Assembly (NCBI GenBank): GCA_030550155.1
Contig: JAUQPZ010000013.1
Location: forward strand, 1 to 41,135
Direction: 5' to 3'
DNA from: Thermoproteota archaeon
GTDB taxonomy: Archaea > Thermoproteota > Nitrososphaeria_A > Caldarchaeales > Calditenuaceae
DNA length: 41,135 nucleotides
This document shows, one piece after another, positions 18,767 to 30,441 of the stretch (position 1 is the first letter of the stretch; every line of letters begins with the position of its first letter). The notes under the pieces were generated by a model. It searched no databases. It saw nothing but the letters and a program-made list of their open reading frames with translations, and was not told where the DNA came from. The translations under genes and the position numbers were made by a program.

Positions 18767-19846
18767 GTGTTCAGGCCTATGTCTGCCTTGAAGGATGTTT
18801 TAGCGAGGCTTGTCGAGGGGCAGGGACTGAGCTCCTCCGAGGCTGAGGCGGCTCTGAGGGAGATTATGTCTGGGAATTCAAGCCCCGCCCAGATGGCTGC
18901 TTTTCTGACTGCTATGCGGATGAAGGGTGAGACCGAGGAAGAGCTCTACGGGATGGCCCGCCTCATGCGGGAGCTTTGCGTGAAGGTTGAGCTCGGCGAC
19001 TCGAGTCAAGCTATTGACATTGTTGGCACGGGCGGCGACAGAGTCAAGACCATCAATGTTAGCACGATCTCATCCCTAATTGTCGCCTCAGTAGGCGTCA
19101 AGGTTGCGAAGCATGGCAACAGGGCTGCTTCAGGGTTTTGCGGAAGCGCCGACCTCCTTGAGGAGGTGGGGGTCAACATCAATCTAGGCCCTGACGGAGT
19201 TAGGAGGTGTGTGGAGAAGTGTGGATTCGGCTTCATGTTCGCACCTCTTTATCACCCCGCGATGAAGAACGTAGCGCCTGTTAGGCGGGAGCTTGGCTTC
19301 AGGACATTCTTCAACCTACTCGGACCGATGACCAATCCGTCTGGGGTGGGGGTGATGCTTGTGGGCGTCTCGGATAATAGATACTTGTTGAAAGTGGCGA
19401 GAGTTTTTTCGAGGCTGGGGCTGGAGAGATGCCTCATCGTCTGCTCAAGCGACGGCGTTGACGAGATCTCCATACAGGGTATGACGGAGGCTTGCTGGGT
19501 CGAGAGAGGAGAGATACGTGGCTGGAAGATCAGCCCCGGCGACTTCGGGCTGAAGCCCTCTTCCCTGGAGCCAGCTGTAGTCAGGTCGAGAGAGGATGCG
19601 GTTAAGCGTGCCGTGGACATTCTGAGGGGCAGGCTCAGCTCAGAGGACCCAAATATGAGGCTGGTCCTCGTAAACTCTGCCGCCGCACTCTTCCTGTCCG
19701 GGAGATGTGGCAGCTTGAGGGAGGGGGTTGAGGCTGCGCATAGCGCAGTTCTTGAAGGCCGCGTCCTCGAGACTCTTTTCAAGGTTGTGGAGCTGAGTGG
19801 TGGCGAGCTTGAGAGGTGTAGGGCGCTTGTCGGAGGGGGCGCGTGA
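18767..19846 (+). CDS. trpD: Anthranilate phosphoribosyltransferase
   Basis: DIVGTGGDRVKTINVSTISSLIVA...KHGNRAASGFCGSADLLEEVGVN. Start probably ATG 18779. Confidence 0.96.
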   Translation: MFRPMSALKDVLARLVEGQGLSSSEAEAALREIMSGNSSPAQMAAFLTAMRMKGETEEELYGMARLMRELCVKVELGDSSQAIDIVGTGGDRVKTINVSTISSLIVASVGVKVAKHGNRAASGFCGSADLLEEVGVNINLGPDGVRRCVEKCGFGFMFAPLYHPAMKNVAPVRRELGFRTFFNLLGPMTNPSGVGVMLVGVSDNRYLLKVARVFSRLGLERCLIVCSSDGVDEISIQGMTEACWVERGEIRGWKISPGDFGLKPSSLEPAVVRSREDAVKRAVDILRGRLSSEDPNMRLVLVNSAAALFLSGRCGSLREGVEAAHSAVLEGRVLETLFKVVELSGGELERCRALVGGGA

Positions 19847-20618
19847 TTTTTTATTAACTCTCTGTGAGGATGCGAGGCGAAGGGTTTCAGAGGGCTACTA
19901 TAGGATAGAGCGGAAAGAGACCATATTCCACGGAGAGCGGCTAAGCACTTCAATATTAAGGCAGAAGGGGAATGCGGTCATCGCAGAATTTAAGAGGGCC
20001 TCTCCGAGCATGGGGGCCATCGTAGGTGGCGCGAGCCCTCGAGAGTCTGTCCGCGCCATGGAGAGGGGAGGGGCCTGTGGCATCTCGGTGCTTACAGCGA
20101 GAGAGTGGTTCGAGGGGTCGATTGAGGATTTGATTGAGGCTAGAATGGCTTGTAGCCTCCCAATATTGATGAAGGACGTAGTTGTCTCTGAGGAGCAGAT
20201 CGAGGCCGCCCACAGGCTCGGGGCTCAGGCCGTCTTACTCATTCTCCGAGCCTTCAATAGAGGCTATACTCAGGTCTCCCTCGAGAGAGCTATACGCTTG
20301 GCTAGGGACCTCTCGCTCGAGGTCCTGCTGGAGGCCTGTAGCAGAGAAGAGCTTCTGGAGGCTCTGGGCACAGATGCTGACATGGTGGGGGTTAATTCTA
20401 GGGACCTATCCACTCTTCGTGTAGATAAGATGGTTCACGTGAGGGCGGTTGAGGGGCTGGATGTAGGTGGAAGAGTCCTCATAGCGGAGAGCGGAATTGA
20501 TTCTGCCGAGGATATCAGAAGGTTGAGGGGCCTCGGCTATCGAGCATTTCTCATAGGCACCTCTATTATGAAGGGGCCTGATGTGGAGTCTAAGACGAGA
20601 GAGCTGGTGAGGGCCTAA
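19797..20618 (+). CDS. trpC: Indole-3-glycerol phosphate synthase
   Basis: VIAEFKRASPSMG, LIEARMACSLPILMKDVVV, VGVNSRDLSTL, ESGI. The real start is likely near the trpD stop. Confidence 0.95.
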   Translation: MVASLRGVGRLSEGARDFLLTLCEDARRRVSEGYYRIERKETIFHGERLSTSILRQKGNAVIAEFKRASPSMGAIVGGASPRESVRAMERGGACGISVLTAREWFEGSIEDLIEARMACSLPILMKDVVVSEEQIEAAHRLGAQAVLLILRAFNRGYTQVSLERAIRLARDLSLEVLLEACSREELLEALGTDADMVGVNSRDLSTLRVDKMVHVRAVEGLDVGGRVLIAESGIDSAEDIRRLRGLGYRAFLIGTSIMKGPDVESKTRELVRA

Positions 20619-21253
20619 TGCGCGCCCGCGTCAAGATATGCGGGATTAAGAGGGTGGAGGACTTGGAGGCCGCGGTTGCCGAAGGGGCTGATGCCGTGGG
20701 CATGGTTGTCGGTTTTCCCTCGTCCCCCAGGAACCTCAGAATCGACGAGGCAGCAGAGATCAGGCGTAGGGTGCCACTCTTCATCGACGCGGTCCTCGTA
20801 ACCCAGGCAAAAAATATTGAAGAGTTGAGGTGGGCGGTCGAGAAGGTTCAGCCAGACGCTCTCCAGCTCTACGGCCCATTAGCTGTCGGTGTGGCTAAAG
20901 AGGCTGCACCATCCTGCAGAGTAATCAAGCCACTAAAAGCGGGAGACGAGCCCACGGATCTCGAGGTAATGGGTGCCGACGCGGTTCTACTGGATAGCCA
21001 TTCGGCAGGTTTACCCGGAGGCAGCGGGAGGACTCATGACTGGTTTGAGGCGAGGAGGGTGAAAGAGAGGGTGGGTCTCCCCTTAATTCTGGCCGGCGGC
21101 CTGAACCCGACGAACGTCCGTGAAGCTATCAGAGTTGTCAAGCCTTATGCCGTTGATGTTTCCTCGGGTGTGGAGTCGTCTCCCGGTGTGAAGAGCAGGG
21201 AGCTGATTAGAGCGTTCATCTCAGCCGTGGTCGGTGAGGAGATAGATGGTTAG
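20618..21253 (+). CDS. trpF: Phosphoribosylanthranilate isomerase
   Basis: [53 protein letters not shown]. Confidence 0.96.
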
Positions 21254-22448
21254 AAGTTATAACCTTCCAGATGAAAGCGGAAGGTTCGGTGTATTCGGCG
21301 GCCGATACGTTCCAGAGACGCTTGTTGAGGCTCTTGCTGAGCTGGAGGAGGCATACAACAGGCTCAAAGCCGACCAGATATTTCAGGGCGAGCTCAACTC
21401 TCTTCTAAAGGACTACGCCGGCAGACCCACACCGCTATACTTTGCTGAAAGGCTTACGGAGAAGCTCGGAGGAGCCAAAATCTATCTGAAGCGAGAAGAC
21501 CTAGCCTTCACCGGCGCACATAAGATAAACAACACGTTGGGTCAAGGCCTGCTGGCGAAGAGGATGGGAAAGAAGAGGCTGGTGGCCGAGACAGGGGCCG
21601 GCCAACACGGAGTCGCGACCGCGACTGTCGCGGCCAGGATGGGTTTTGAATGTACGGTCTACATGGGCTCAGAGGATATGGAGCGTCAGTCCATGAACGT
21701 TTACAGGATGAGGCTGCTCGGAGCTGAGGTGAGAAGGGTCGACTCAGGGTCGAAGACCCTCAAAGACGCGATAAACGAGGCCCTTAGGGACTGGGTAGCA
21801 AACGTGAGGACCACACACTATTTACTAGGCTCTGCGGTAGGCCCCCACCCATACCCCATGATAGTCAGAGACTTCCAGTCCGTGATAGGGAGAGAGATCA
21901 AGGAGCAGATACTTGAGCGCGAAGGCAGGCTCCCAGAACTCATCGTGGCCTGCGTAGGCGGGGGAAGCAACGCAATAGGAACATTCTACCCATTCATAGA
22001 GGACGGAGACGTCAGGCTCGTCGGCGTAGAGGCGGGAGGCGAGGGGTTGGAGACACGGAGACACGCGGCCAGCCTAGTAGGAGGCTCGCCCGGCGTGCTA
22101 CACGGCATGCACTCCTACGTACTTCAAGACGAGAACGGGCAGATAAGACAGACGCATAGCATCTCGGCCGGCCTGGATTATCCGGGGGTCGGTCCGGAGC
22201 ACGCGTATCTCAAGGAGATGGGCAGGGCTGAATACGTAGCTGTGAATGACCATGAAGCGCTGAGAGCGTTCCTTGAGCTGGCTAGGGTGGAGGGGATACT
22301 GCCCGCGCTTGAGCCGGCCCACGCGCTAGCATATGCGATGAGGGTAGCACCAATCATGAATAGGGATGAGATAGTGGTTGTGACGCTCTCGGGGCGAGGA
22401 GACAAAGACCTCGACATTGTGAGGAGAAGTCTTGGTGATCTGGTTTGA
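21246..22448 (+). CDS. trpB: Tryptophan synthase beta chain (TrpB1 type)
   Basis: [50 protein letters not shown]. Confidence 0.97.
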
Positions 22449-23257
22449 GACGCTTGATAGACGCCTTCAGGCGCAACCTAGACTCTGGACACGCCTCGCT
22501 GATAGGCTACTTGACAGCCGGAGACCCCAGACCCGAGTACACTGTGAGATACTCTGAGGCCCTGATAAGAGGAGGTGTAGATGTGCTGGAGCTGGGCGCA
22601 CCGTTCAGTGACCCAGTGGCAGACGGCATCACTATTCAGGCATCTACACAGAGAGCCCTCGAGGCCGGAGTTACGCTGCGCGAAGTCCTCAAGATAGCGT
22701 CCGAAATCAGAAACAAGTATGGGACTCCGATAGTTCTTCTATCCTATCTAAATCCGATATACCGTATGGGCTTCAACATGTTCTTCAAAGAGGCGAGCTC
22801 ACGCGGAGTGGACGGAGTCGTCGTCCCCGACCTCCCCGTCGAGGAGGCGGCCGAGTTTCGGGTCGCGGCACAGGAGGCAAGTGTAGCAACAGTCTTCCTC
22901 GCCTCACCCACGACCTCTGACCGAAGACTCGACACAATACTCAAGGCCTCGTCGGGCTTCGTCTACCTCGTCTCGCTCTTAGGTGTTACGGGCGTTAGGA
23001 GCGAGCTCTCAGCAGAGGCCCTGAGGCTGATAGATAGGGTTAGGGCGCGGAGGGAGAGACCATACATCGCCGTGGGGTTCGGAGTCTCATCCCCGGAGCA
23101 CGTGTCCATGCTGGCCAAGAAGGGAGCGGAGGGCGTTATAGTGGGAAGCGCAATAGTCAAGATAGTTCAGGAAAACCTCTCCGACCCGGAGAGATGCGAG
23201 GCAAGGCTGGAAGAATTCACCCGAAAACTGAAGGAGGCCACACGCTTCAAAGACTAG
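22445..23257 (+). CDS. trpA: Tryptophan synthase alpha chain (TTG start)
   Basis: [45 protein letters not shown]. Confidence 0.96.
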
Positions 23258-23708: not shown

Positions 23709-23729
23709 CATGGTTAAATAAATACCATG
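23709..23729. promoter_or_regulatory. Inverted repeat CATGGT-TAAATAAAT-ACCATG flanking a TATA-like core in a divergent promoter
   Basis: Read directly between the divergent SerK-like gene and the nucleoside hydrolase. Confidence 0.4.
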
Positions 23730-24701
23730 TCCCCGCCTCAACAGATATCTGCCCCCAAATCCTTGGTAGAGTCTGAGATGAGCAAGGTCTTGCTGGACAT
23801 GGACCCTGGAATAGACGACGCTCTCGCCCTACTACTGGCCGTTAGCCTACCCGAGCTGGAGCTGCTTGGGGTGACTACTGTGGCCGGGAACACCGTGGTG
23901 GAGAAGACAAGTGTCAACGCTCGGAGAGTGCTTGAATACGTTGGGCGCGGGGAGGTGCCGGTCTATGCGGGAGCCTCAGGGCCGATGGCTAGACTATTAA
24001 CCACAGCCGAGCATGTCCACGGCCAAGATGGGCTGGGCGAGGCCGGGATACCAGGGCCCATCGACCCTCCACAAGCCGGCGCCCTCCAGTTTTTATCTGA
24101 AACCATCAAGAAAAACCCTCACGAAGTAACGATAGTCGCAACAGGCCCCTTAACCAACCTTGGCCTAGCATTTCTTCTCAACCACCGCCTACCAAGCCTT
24201 GTTAAAGAGATCGTAATCATGGGCGGAGCATACCACCTCACACCCTACGGTCGGGGAAACATAACACCTCTCTCAGAGTTCAACATCTACACAGACCCTG
24301 AGGCTGCGAAAATCGTCTTCGAGTCCACCGCACCATTAACGTGCGTAGGCTTAGACGTCACAACAAATCCCTCAGTCAAAATAGACTCTCAGCGATACAG
24401 GGAGATAAGCCGTCTCGGGGGAAGAAAAGCTGAGCTAGCATCCAAGATCATGAAGTATCAGATAGAGAGGTTTGGAGAGATTGAAGTTCATGACGCCCTC
24501 GCGGTTGCGGCCGCGATGCAGCCAGCCATGTTCCAGATGGTTGAGATGAATGTCCAAGTCCTCACTAACAACGACGCCTCGCGAGGAGCCACGATACCCT
24601 TCAAGCCAAAAGAGGGCGGGCGTGGGAGGGCCAGGATATGCATAGACATCAACTCTGAAGAGTTCATGAGGCTATTTCTCGAGAAAGTCTCCGAGGCCTA
24701 G
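23727..24701 (+). CDS. Inosine/uridine-preferring nucleoside hydrolase; probable start ATG 23778
   Basis: VLLDMDPGIDDALALLLA, GVTTVAGN, NIYTDPEAAKIVFE, HDALAVAAA. Confidence 0.93.
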   Translation: MSPPQQISAPKSLVESEMSKVLLDMDPGIDDALALLLAVSLPELELLGVTTVAGNTVVEKTSVNARRVLEYVGRGEVPVYAGASGPMARLLTTAEHVHGQDGLGEAGIPGPIDPPQAGALQFLSETIKKNPHEVTIVATGPLTNLGLAFLLNHRLPSLVKEIVIMGGAYHLTPYGRGNITPLSEFNIYTDPEAAKIVFESTAPLTCVGLDVTTNPSVKIDSQRYREISRLGGRKAELASKIMKYQIERFGEIEVHDALAVAAAMQPAMFQMVEMNVQVLTNNDASRGATIPFKPKEGGRGRARICIDINSEEFMRLFLEKVSEA

Positions 24702-28378: not shown

Positions 28379-29383
28379 ATGCTGAAGGCCGCAATCTATG
28401 CAGGTCACACAGCTATCCAGCTCTCTCGAGGCCTTCTAGAGGAGGGAATCGGTGTAACGATCTTTGGGCCGAAGGATAGGCTGCGTCTCTATGAAAGATT
28501 CCCAGCTCTCAGGGTGCGGCTGCTCAATTATAATGGTCCATCACAGCTGGAGTCTTTGGCTGACGAGGAGCACTTTCTAGTCTTGACCGGCGGCGCTGTC
28601 GAGTATTTGACTCCGGCTGTGGTTGAGAGTTCAAGGATTCCTGTCTTCGGTCTCAGAGAGCTGGTTAGGTGGGAGGCGGACTGGGGTTTGAAGATCCGTC
28701 TTTTGGAGGAGGCGCGAATACCCGCACCAAAGTGGTTTAGGAGCGTTGAGGAGGTGGATGGCCTCGCCATAGCAAAGCTTCCGGGTGCAAAGGGCGGTAG
28801 AGGATACTTTGTTACCCGTTCTCAGGAGGAGATTAGAGGCTGGATAGAGAGGGCTGTAGCCTCGGGCCTCGTATCAAGTCCTAACGAGCTCTTCCTGCAG
28901 GAATATGTTGTTGGCACGCCGATCTACGCGCATTATTTTCAAAGCCCCATCATGGACAGGCTGGAGCTAACAGGGTTTGACATCAGATACGAGTCTAACG
29001 TTGACGGGCTCAGACGCCTCTCTCCAAGAAATATAGGGGAGCTTCGCGAGTCCTTCGTAGTCACCGGGAACCTCATAGTTTATCCGAGGGAAAGGCTGCT
29101 AGAAGACTTCATCGAGCTGGGTGAGAGGTTCGTTGAAGCCACGAAGCGCCTTATACCTCCGGGGATAATCGGACCTTTCAGCCTTGAAACCGTTGTGACT
29201 GAGGAGCTCAAGCCCGTAGTTTTTGAGTTCTCGGGCAGGATTGTGGCGGGGACAAATGTCTACATGTTGGGCAGCCCGTATCTTGCCCTTTATTGGGGGC
29301 GCGAGATAACAGTTGGCAGTCGCGTCGCGATGGAGATTAAGATGGCCTTCGAGCAGGGTAGGATGGAGGAGGTGTTAACATAG
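28379..29383 (+). CDS. purP: PurP-family ATP-grasp (FAICAR synthetase-like), paralog 1
   Basis: KLPGAKGGRGYFV, EYVVGTPIYAHYFQSP, FDIRYESNVDGL, FEFSGRIVAGTNVYMLGSPY. Confidence 0.88.
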   Translation: MLKAAIYAGHTAIQLSRGLLEEGIGVTIFGPKDRLRLYERFPALRVRLLNYNGPSQLESLADEEHFLVLTGGAVEYLTPAVVESSRIPVFGLRELVRWEADWGLKIRLLEEARIPAPKWFRSVEEVDGLAIAKLPGAKGGRGYFVTRSQEEIRGWIERAVASGLVSSPNELFLQEYVVGTPIYAHYFQSPIMDRLELTGFDIRYESNVDGLRRLSPRNIGELRESFVVTGNLIVYPRERLLEDFIELGERFVEATKRLIPPGIIGPFSLETVVTEELKPVVFEFSGRIVAGTNVYMLGSPYLALYWGREITVGSRVAMEIKMAFEQGRMEEVLT

Positions 29384-29385
29384 TC

Positions 29386-30441
29386 TTGGCGAGCCTAAGT
29401 ATCGCCTGCATAGCAAGCCACTCCGCTCTGGACGTCTTCGACGGCTCAAAGGACGAGGGCTTCACAACGATAGCCATCTGCAGAAAAGGTAGGGAGCGCA
29501 TGTACGCGGCAGTCCGCGAGACCGTTGACAGGCTGCTGGTCCTCGACAGCTATAAGGATATCATAACGCCCCGAGTTCAAGAGAGGCTCCGGGAAGAGGA
29601 GGCAATAATAGTGCCGAACAGGAGCATGGCAGTCTATGTAGGCTATACAGAGATTGAGAAGGAGCTCAATGTTCCTGTCTTCGGGAACAAGTTTCTATTA
29701 AGATGGGAAGAGCGCGTAGGTGAGAAAAACTACTACAGACTTTTGGATGAGGCTGGAATTAGGCGGCCGAGAGTCTGGAGAATCGACGAGTGCTCTGGAC
29801 CAGTCATACTAAAGATTCAGGAGGCTAAGAGGCCTCAGGAGCGGGCCTTCATATTCGCTTCAGGGCGCGACCACCTACTCTCCAAGATAGAAGACGCTCT
29901 GAGAAAGGAAGTCATCAGTGAAGAGCAGCTGAGAAGCGCGGTGGCTGAGGAGCTGATTCTGGGCGCCCACTTCAACATCAACTACTTCTACAGCGCTGCG
30001 CGGGGAAGGCTTGAGATATTGAGCATCGACAGAAGAATTCAAAGCAACCTAGATGGCTTACTCCACCTACCCGCAAGACAGCAGCTAGAACTGGATCAGC
30101 CAATCAGCATGATAGAAGTTGGGCACATACCCGTCACGATTCGTGAGAGCCTCCTGGAGGAGGCTTACGTGATTGGTGAGAGGTTTATTGAGGCTTCGAG
30201 GAGGCTGGAGCCCCCAGGCGTGATCGGGCCATTCACACTCCAGGCACTGGTTACGCCAGAGCTGCAGCTCGTTGTATATGACGTGGCTCCCCGGATAGGG
30301 GGCGGGACCAACGCCCACATGGGTATTGGGGGCCAGTACTCGAAGCTTTTCCTAAGGAGGGCGGTCTCGACGGGTAGGAGAATCGCCATGGAGATAAGGG
30401 AGATGAGCAGCCAAGATAGGCTCCACGAGATAACCACATGA
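29386..30441 (+). CDS. purP: PurP-family ATP-grasp, paralog 2
   Basis: IASHSALDVFDGSKDEGFTTIAICRKGRE, SIDRRIQSNLDGLLHLPA, VYDVAPRIGGGTNAHMG. Confidence 0.86.
   Translation: MASLSIACIASHSALDVFDGSKDEGFTTIAICRKGRERMYAAVRETVDRLLVLDSYKDIITPRVQERLREEEAIIVPNRSMAVYVGYTEIEKELNVPVFGNKFLLRWEERVGEKNYYRLLDEAGIRRPRVWRIDECSGPVILKIQEAKRPQERAFIFASGRDHLLSKIEDALRKEVISEEQLRSAVAEELILGAHFNINYFYSAARGRLEILSIDRRIQSNLDGLLHLPARQQLELDQPISMIEVGHIPVTIRESLLEEAYVIGERFIEASRRLEPPGVIGPFTLQALVTPELQLVVYDVAPRIGGGTNAHMGIGGQYSKLFLRRAVSTGRRIAMEIREMSSQDRLHEITT

Follow-up and report, generated by a model that had tools for sequence, protein, structure and literature searches.

The window, that is the whole stretch of 41,135 nucleotides that was analysed, carries two adjacent open reading frames for PurP homologues on the same strand, separated by 2 nt. 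The features of the locus were as follows; residue numbers here and below are those of M. jannaschii PurP.

28379..29383, + strand: copy 1, PurP-I (cluster Ib type), 334 aa, ATG start
28403..28447, + strand: N-terminal segment GHTAIQLSRGLLEEG of copy 1, with the formyl-contacting His27 kept and S26 changed to G
28781..28810, + strand: glycine-rich ATP-grasp loop PGAKGGRGYF of copy 1
Inside copy 1, just 5' of the copy 2 TTG, + strand: Shine-Dalgarno-like run GGAGGAGGTG
29386..30441, + strand: copy 2, PurP-II (cluster II), 351 aa, TTG start
29815..29856, + strand: class II replacement of the P-loop in copy 2, IQEAKRPQERAFIF, exceeding the class I loop by 2 residues

Both proteins matched PF06849 and PF06973 far above the cut-off and are full-length PurP homologues, which bears out the tandem paralogues of the original prediction. 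The two domains of the DUF1246+DUF1297 architecture scored 52.7 and 212.3 bits in copy 1, both exceeding the cut-off. M. jannaschii PurP (2r7k) was matched nearly end to end by copy 1 (2e-68) and by copy 2 (3e-76). Against NCBIfam NF009778 copy 1 reached 299 bits (cut-off 570), and it stayed under every equivalog cut-off. The nearest named matches were Calditenuaceae ILS 100 and HRbin02, and copy 1 was 80% identical to PurP-I of a Calditenuaceae MAG and 78% identical to that of HRbin02. A korarchaeal source of the window, to which the resemblance to the Korarchaeum cryptofilum pair had pointed, was discarded on account of these matches. A search of the host genome yielded no PurP gene beyond the two copies.

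The immediate neighbours of the pair are not purine synthesis genes. Upstream in the window, on the + strand, lie a tryptophan gene cluster (18767-23257; trpD, trpC for IGPS, trpF for PRAI, a PALP-family trpB candidate and trpA) and a gene for an inosine-uridine nucleoside hydrolase (23727-24701), which fits purine salvage without de novo synthesis. A recent tandem duplication was ruled out for the pair, as the copies share only 36% identity and already diverge at the base of the family tree. Within the genus, dN/dS was about 0.06-0.08 for both copies, indicating strong purifying selection. At longer distances the class II protein evolved more slowly, with 60% identity to the protein of locus L008 versus 43% for class I. 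Decay of copy 2 into a pseudogene was likewise ruled out, its dN/dS being about 0.07 and copy 2 being the slower evolving of the two.

The duplication into clusters I and II was described by Brown et al. in 2011 (PMC3261824). Cluster II proteins, to which no function was assigned, have His in place of Asn258 and a longer loop without the P-loop glycines, and their genes often adjoin a cluster I gene (PMC3261824). We aligned PurP proteins taken from Thermoproteota loci and from solved structures, of which 56 belong to class I, 59 to class II and 15 to class III. The signatures G93/R, G163/E and N258/H, which distinguish class I from classes II and III, were exceptionless among the 130 aligned proteins, and E310/D failed in a single class I outlier only. 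His27, Arg264 and Arg314 were invariant in 130/130. The tree separated class I from classes II and III with an SH-aLRT value of 99, while class II received only 47 as a single clade.

Copy 1 resembles the cluster I proteins, of which cluster Ia is represented by M. jannaschii MJ0136 (PDB 2r7k) and cluster Ib by P. furiosus PF1517 (PDB 2r84). It retains His27, Asn258, Glu310 and Arg314, its P-loop KGGRG follows the cluster I pattern (K/R)GG(K/R)G, and it is 38% identical to MJ0136 over the aligned columns. It differs from cluster I in the lineage changes S26G, S94G, P260I and S266R, position 260 being I or Q across the genus. Copy 2 carries the class II signature R93, E163, H258, Q297 and D310 together with a loop that is two residues longer and lacks GG.G, and it retains His27, Ser94, Ser266 and Arg314. 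Like P. furiosus PF0421 of cluster II it has no glycine loop and adjoins a cluster I gene; only minor substitutions, none of them class-defining, set it apart from that cluster. The two copies are thus the ordinary archaeal PurP-I/PurP-II pair, which arose by an ancient duplication. The genes of such pairs were found together and adjacent in 50 sampled loci, in either gene order and sharing a strand in 47 of the 50, which agrees with the co-occurrence raised by the original prediction.

That prediction had further proposed that each copy lost one of two conserved motifs and that the copies complement one another as halves of one active enzyme. The motifs themselves are present in the window as described, with GHTAIQLSRGLLEEG and PGAKGGRGYF in copy 1 and SHSALDVFDGSKDEGF and IQEAKRPQERAFIF in copy 2. 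However, the GG.G loop occurs in 0/59 class II proteins, all of which have His258, Asp310 and Arg93, while S26G in the N-terminus of copy 1 is confined to the genus of the window and leaves His27 intact. The loop change is therefore ancient and class-wide, and the N-terminal change is recent. Moreover, SH[ST] and the GG.G loop occur together in 51/56 class I proteins, and a class II gene lies beside most of these. Relatives in the same family (e.g. L045-L048) have a class I protein that is canonical in both motifs and a class II gene that is still adjacent. The argument from complementary loss fails on these grounds and gives no support to the obligate heteromer derived from it, and half-enzymes are very improbable. 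The suggestion that one copy catalyses a different reaction keeps its footing in one respect, because copy 2 does lack the ATP-grasp loop.

The purine genes were surveyed in 299 Thermoproteota genomes that were at least 85% complete. PurP was present in 241/299 genomes and PurH2 in only 13/299, while PurO (PF07826) was found in 0/299, the host genome included. PurH (PurH1+PurH2) and PurP+PurO carry out the same two steps from AICAR to IMP, and PurP is related to neither PurH nor PurO. PurH also had no real match in the host genome (PurH2 part of TIGR00355), so the check for purH and purO that accompanied the original prediction was negative for both. As the host has neither PurO nor PurH2, ring closure needs another protein. 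PurC was not found in the host genome, and PurM and PurL gave paralogue-level matches only (2.7e-8 and 7.5e-7, respectively), whereas HisF (6.5e-103) and PurA (1.1e-110) were present. Across the order Caldarchaeales PurL was found in only 4/44 genomes and a PurP match in 35/44 (33 of class I/II and 2 of class III). Weak PurH matches of about 1e-5 in the order were rejected, since they covered only positions 4-58 and lay within reading frames roughly 1,080 aa long; we take them to be an MGS-type domain, as in CarB.

Among the PurC-less genomes, some of which outside Caldarchaeales may merely be incomplete MAGs, PurP (class III excluded) was present in 32/39 genomes with HisF but only 8/52 without it. 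When genera were counted instead, a partial phylogenetic correction with sets compiled by hand from tables, PurP again tracked HisF (17:3 versus 2:30, Fisher p 7e-9). Three of the eight PurP-positive genomes without HisF contained decayed fragments only. Truncated or stop-bearing PurP remains were seen at L074, L076 and L093, in family f6 genomes that lack PurC and HisF; they apparently reflect decay once the source of AICAR was gone.

Several sister genera have clusters of the PurP pair, guaB and purA (once also with purB), arranged co-directionally or divergently. At L102-L106, in Caldarchaeales genera without de novo purine genes, PurP-II/PurP-I adjoin guaB (IMP dehydrogenase) and purA; L103 has PurP-I only and also purB beside guaB and purA. 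A described counterpart is Korarchaeum cryptofilum, where Kcr_0400/Kcr_0401 form an adjacent cluster Ib/II pair and de novo purine genes are likewise absent. It differs from the window host in that its histidine genes are missing too, while the window genome has HisF.

According to Brown et al. (PMC3261824), histidine synthesis releases AICAR, and the last two purine steps are therefore expected wherever histidine is made. Since PurP tracks HisF and the pair adjoins guaB and purA in sister genera, we place the pair at the AICAR-to-IMP node. The class membership of the genes, their co-retention, the loss of the upstream purine genes and the links to histidine genes and to guaB-purA were observed directly. 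The pair thus probably recycles histidine-derived AICAR to IMP in a purine-auxotrophic Caldarchaeales host from a hot spring (probability about 0.7). AICAR formed as a by-product of histidine biosynthesis would be converted by PurP-I, with formate and ATP, to FAICAR, a reaction established for cluster Ia; PurP-II may then, with less certainty, close the ring to IMP, which would be used by PurA and, where linked, by GuaB. Some observations run against this recycling. Genus g6 (G061, G097, G121 and G151) keeps the pair without HisF or PurC, the pair adjoining guaB and purA in G097 and G121, and HisF occurs without PurC or PurP in two genomes of family f4. The non-purine neighbours of the pair in the window point the same way, as does the loss of two AICAR phosphate contacts from its PurP-I.

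The contacts in question are Ser94 and Ser266, which Brown et al. (PMC3261824) count among the residues that contact the AICAR phosphate and which are replaced by Gly and Arg, respectively, in copy 1 and across its genus. S94G is limited to this genus. Position 266 is R or K in 18/56 class I proteins, all of them from Caldarchaeales, and Ala in one. These losses were not treated as class-defining, because Brown et al. accept exceptions: in Kcr_0400/Kcr_0401, Ser94 is unconserved in one protein and Ser266 in the other (PMC3261824). The presence of S26G, S94G, P260I/Q and S266R throughout the genus, and the faster divergence of class I than class II, would also fit a drift of copy 1 from AICAR to another substrate after the loss of de novo purine synthesis. 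However, G109, a member of the same genus with the same substitutions, has PurL, PurM and PurC, so the changes can coexist with purine synthesis and do not by themselves imply a new substrate. Phosphate can also be bound by R or K at position 266, and dN/dS is low. Such a drift is accordingly quite improbable.

For the second step of the recycling, PurP-II is a candidate IMP cyclohydrolase, at somewhat less than even odds. It would be an ATP-grasp protein whose ATP loop was lost and whose FAICAR site was retained, with a newly acquired catalytic His258. This His takes the place of Asn258 next to the carboxamide, the group that has to attack the formyl carbon. Judged from the residues, PurP-II fits this role because the formyl and phosphate contacts are kept (His27, Arg314, Ser94 and Ser266), the ATP loop and Glu310 are lost, and His258 is present. 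Tentatively, then, PurP-II may be the missing IMP cyclohydrolase of Thermoproteota, with the daughters of the duplication running AICAR to FAICAR to IMP and Caldarchaeales keeping them as a two-gene module. Brown et al. (PMC3261824) had already considered that one PurP protein of the two might be a cyclohydrolase, but called the phyletic pattern imperfect. In their work Archaeoglobi and Methanosarcinales have PurH2/PurH alongside two PurP. The pattern was imperfect here too, in that five genomes combine a PurP pair with PurH2: G069, G081, G117 and G241 have a stand-alone PurH2 plus two PurP matches, and G030 has a full PurH plus two PurP matches. The coexistence of the pair with PurH2 or PurH argues against PurP-II being a cyclohydrolase only.

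The persistence of the pair beside the stand-alone PurH2 in those four genomes would suit an obligate mixed complex of PurP-I and PurP-II that makes FAICAR, with PurP-II as a non-ATP-binding structural or regulatory partner and another protein as the cyclohydrolase. The pair is retained or lost as a unit, its genes are adjacent, the trees are parallel, and in a report cited in PMC3261824 neither PF1517 nor PF0421 of P. furiosus was active by itself. Although these points agree with a complex, methanogens have a class Ia PurP that functions in the absence of class II (PMC3261824), the substrate-site residues of PurP-II are strictly conserved and the protein evolves more slowly than PurP-I, which is more than a scaffold needs, and class III, which is PurP-II-like, exists without any PurP-I. 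We regard such a complex as possible but rather unlikely.

The AlphaFold2 model of copy 2 (pLDDT 94.7) has the PurP fold, with a TM score of 0.90 to 2r7k (MjPurP), and its best non-PurP structural matches were ATP-grasp enzymes. This retention of the ATP-grasp fold, together with Lys156 and, in most members, GGTN, could also mean that PurP-II acts as a ligase or transferase using another donor or substrate, e.g. another formyl donor or carboxamide ribotide. The glycine loop and Glu310 are, however, gone in 59/59 class II proteins, and the residue that contacts the carboxamide is His in every one of them. Members of family f2 (L049-L054 and L060-L066) have also lost the GGTN segment, with VPGSP in its place, so class II can lose yet more of the ATP-grasp site. 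A role as another ligase or transferase is therefore unlikely.

Class III was found in 15 genomes (L078-L092, e.g. L082:808-2265) as one PurP of 464-494 aa without a class I partner. The proteins carry the class II signature (R93, E163, H258 and D310) and several insertions, and their structure model was of modest quality (mean pLDDT 79). PurC is present in 12/15 of these genomes, and the class III gene often adjoins purM or purC. PurH and PurO were absent from 11 of the 12 PurC-positive genomes, so that class III is the sole PurP in 11 purine-making genomes where AICAR needs formylating. If class III acts alone, a P-loop-less PurP may therefore formylate, which favours a ligase and cuts against the simplest form of the cyclohydrolase model.

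The PurP-I/PurP-II pair was thus already known, and the mechanism first proposed for it is unsupported as argued. The missing crenarchaeal IMP cyclohydrolase is a question from 2011 (PMC3261824) that persisted in 2019 (PMC6797443), and no later work on the Thermoproteota enzyme was found in the literature searched. Hosts that keep the pair without other de novo purine genes isolate the FAICAR-to-IMP question: because the rest of the pathway was dropped and the pair kept, the protein responsible should fall in a very small gene set, within which PurP-II is the first candidate. A second natural test is offered by the 15 genomes in which a P-loop-less class III protein stands alone as PurP. The genomic setting therefore makes an old question easier to address.
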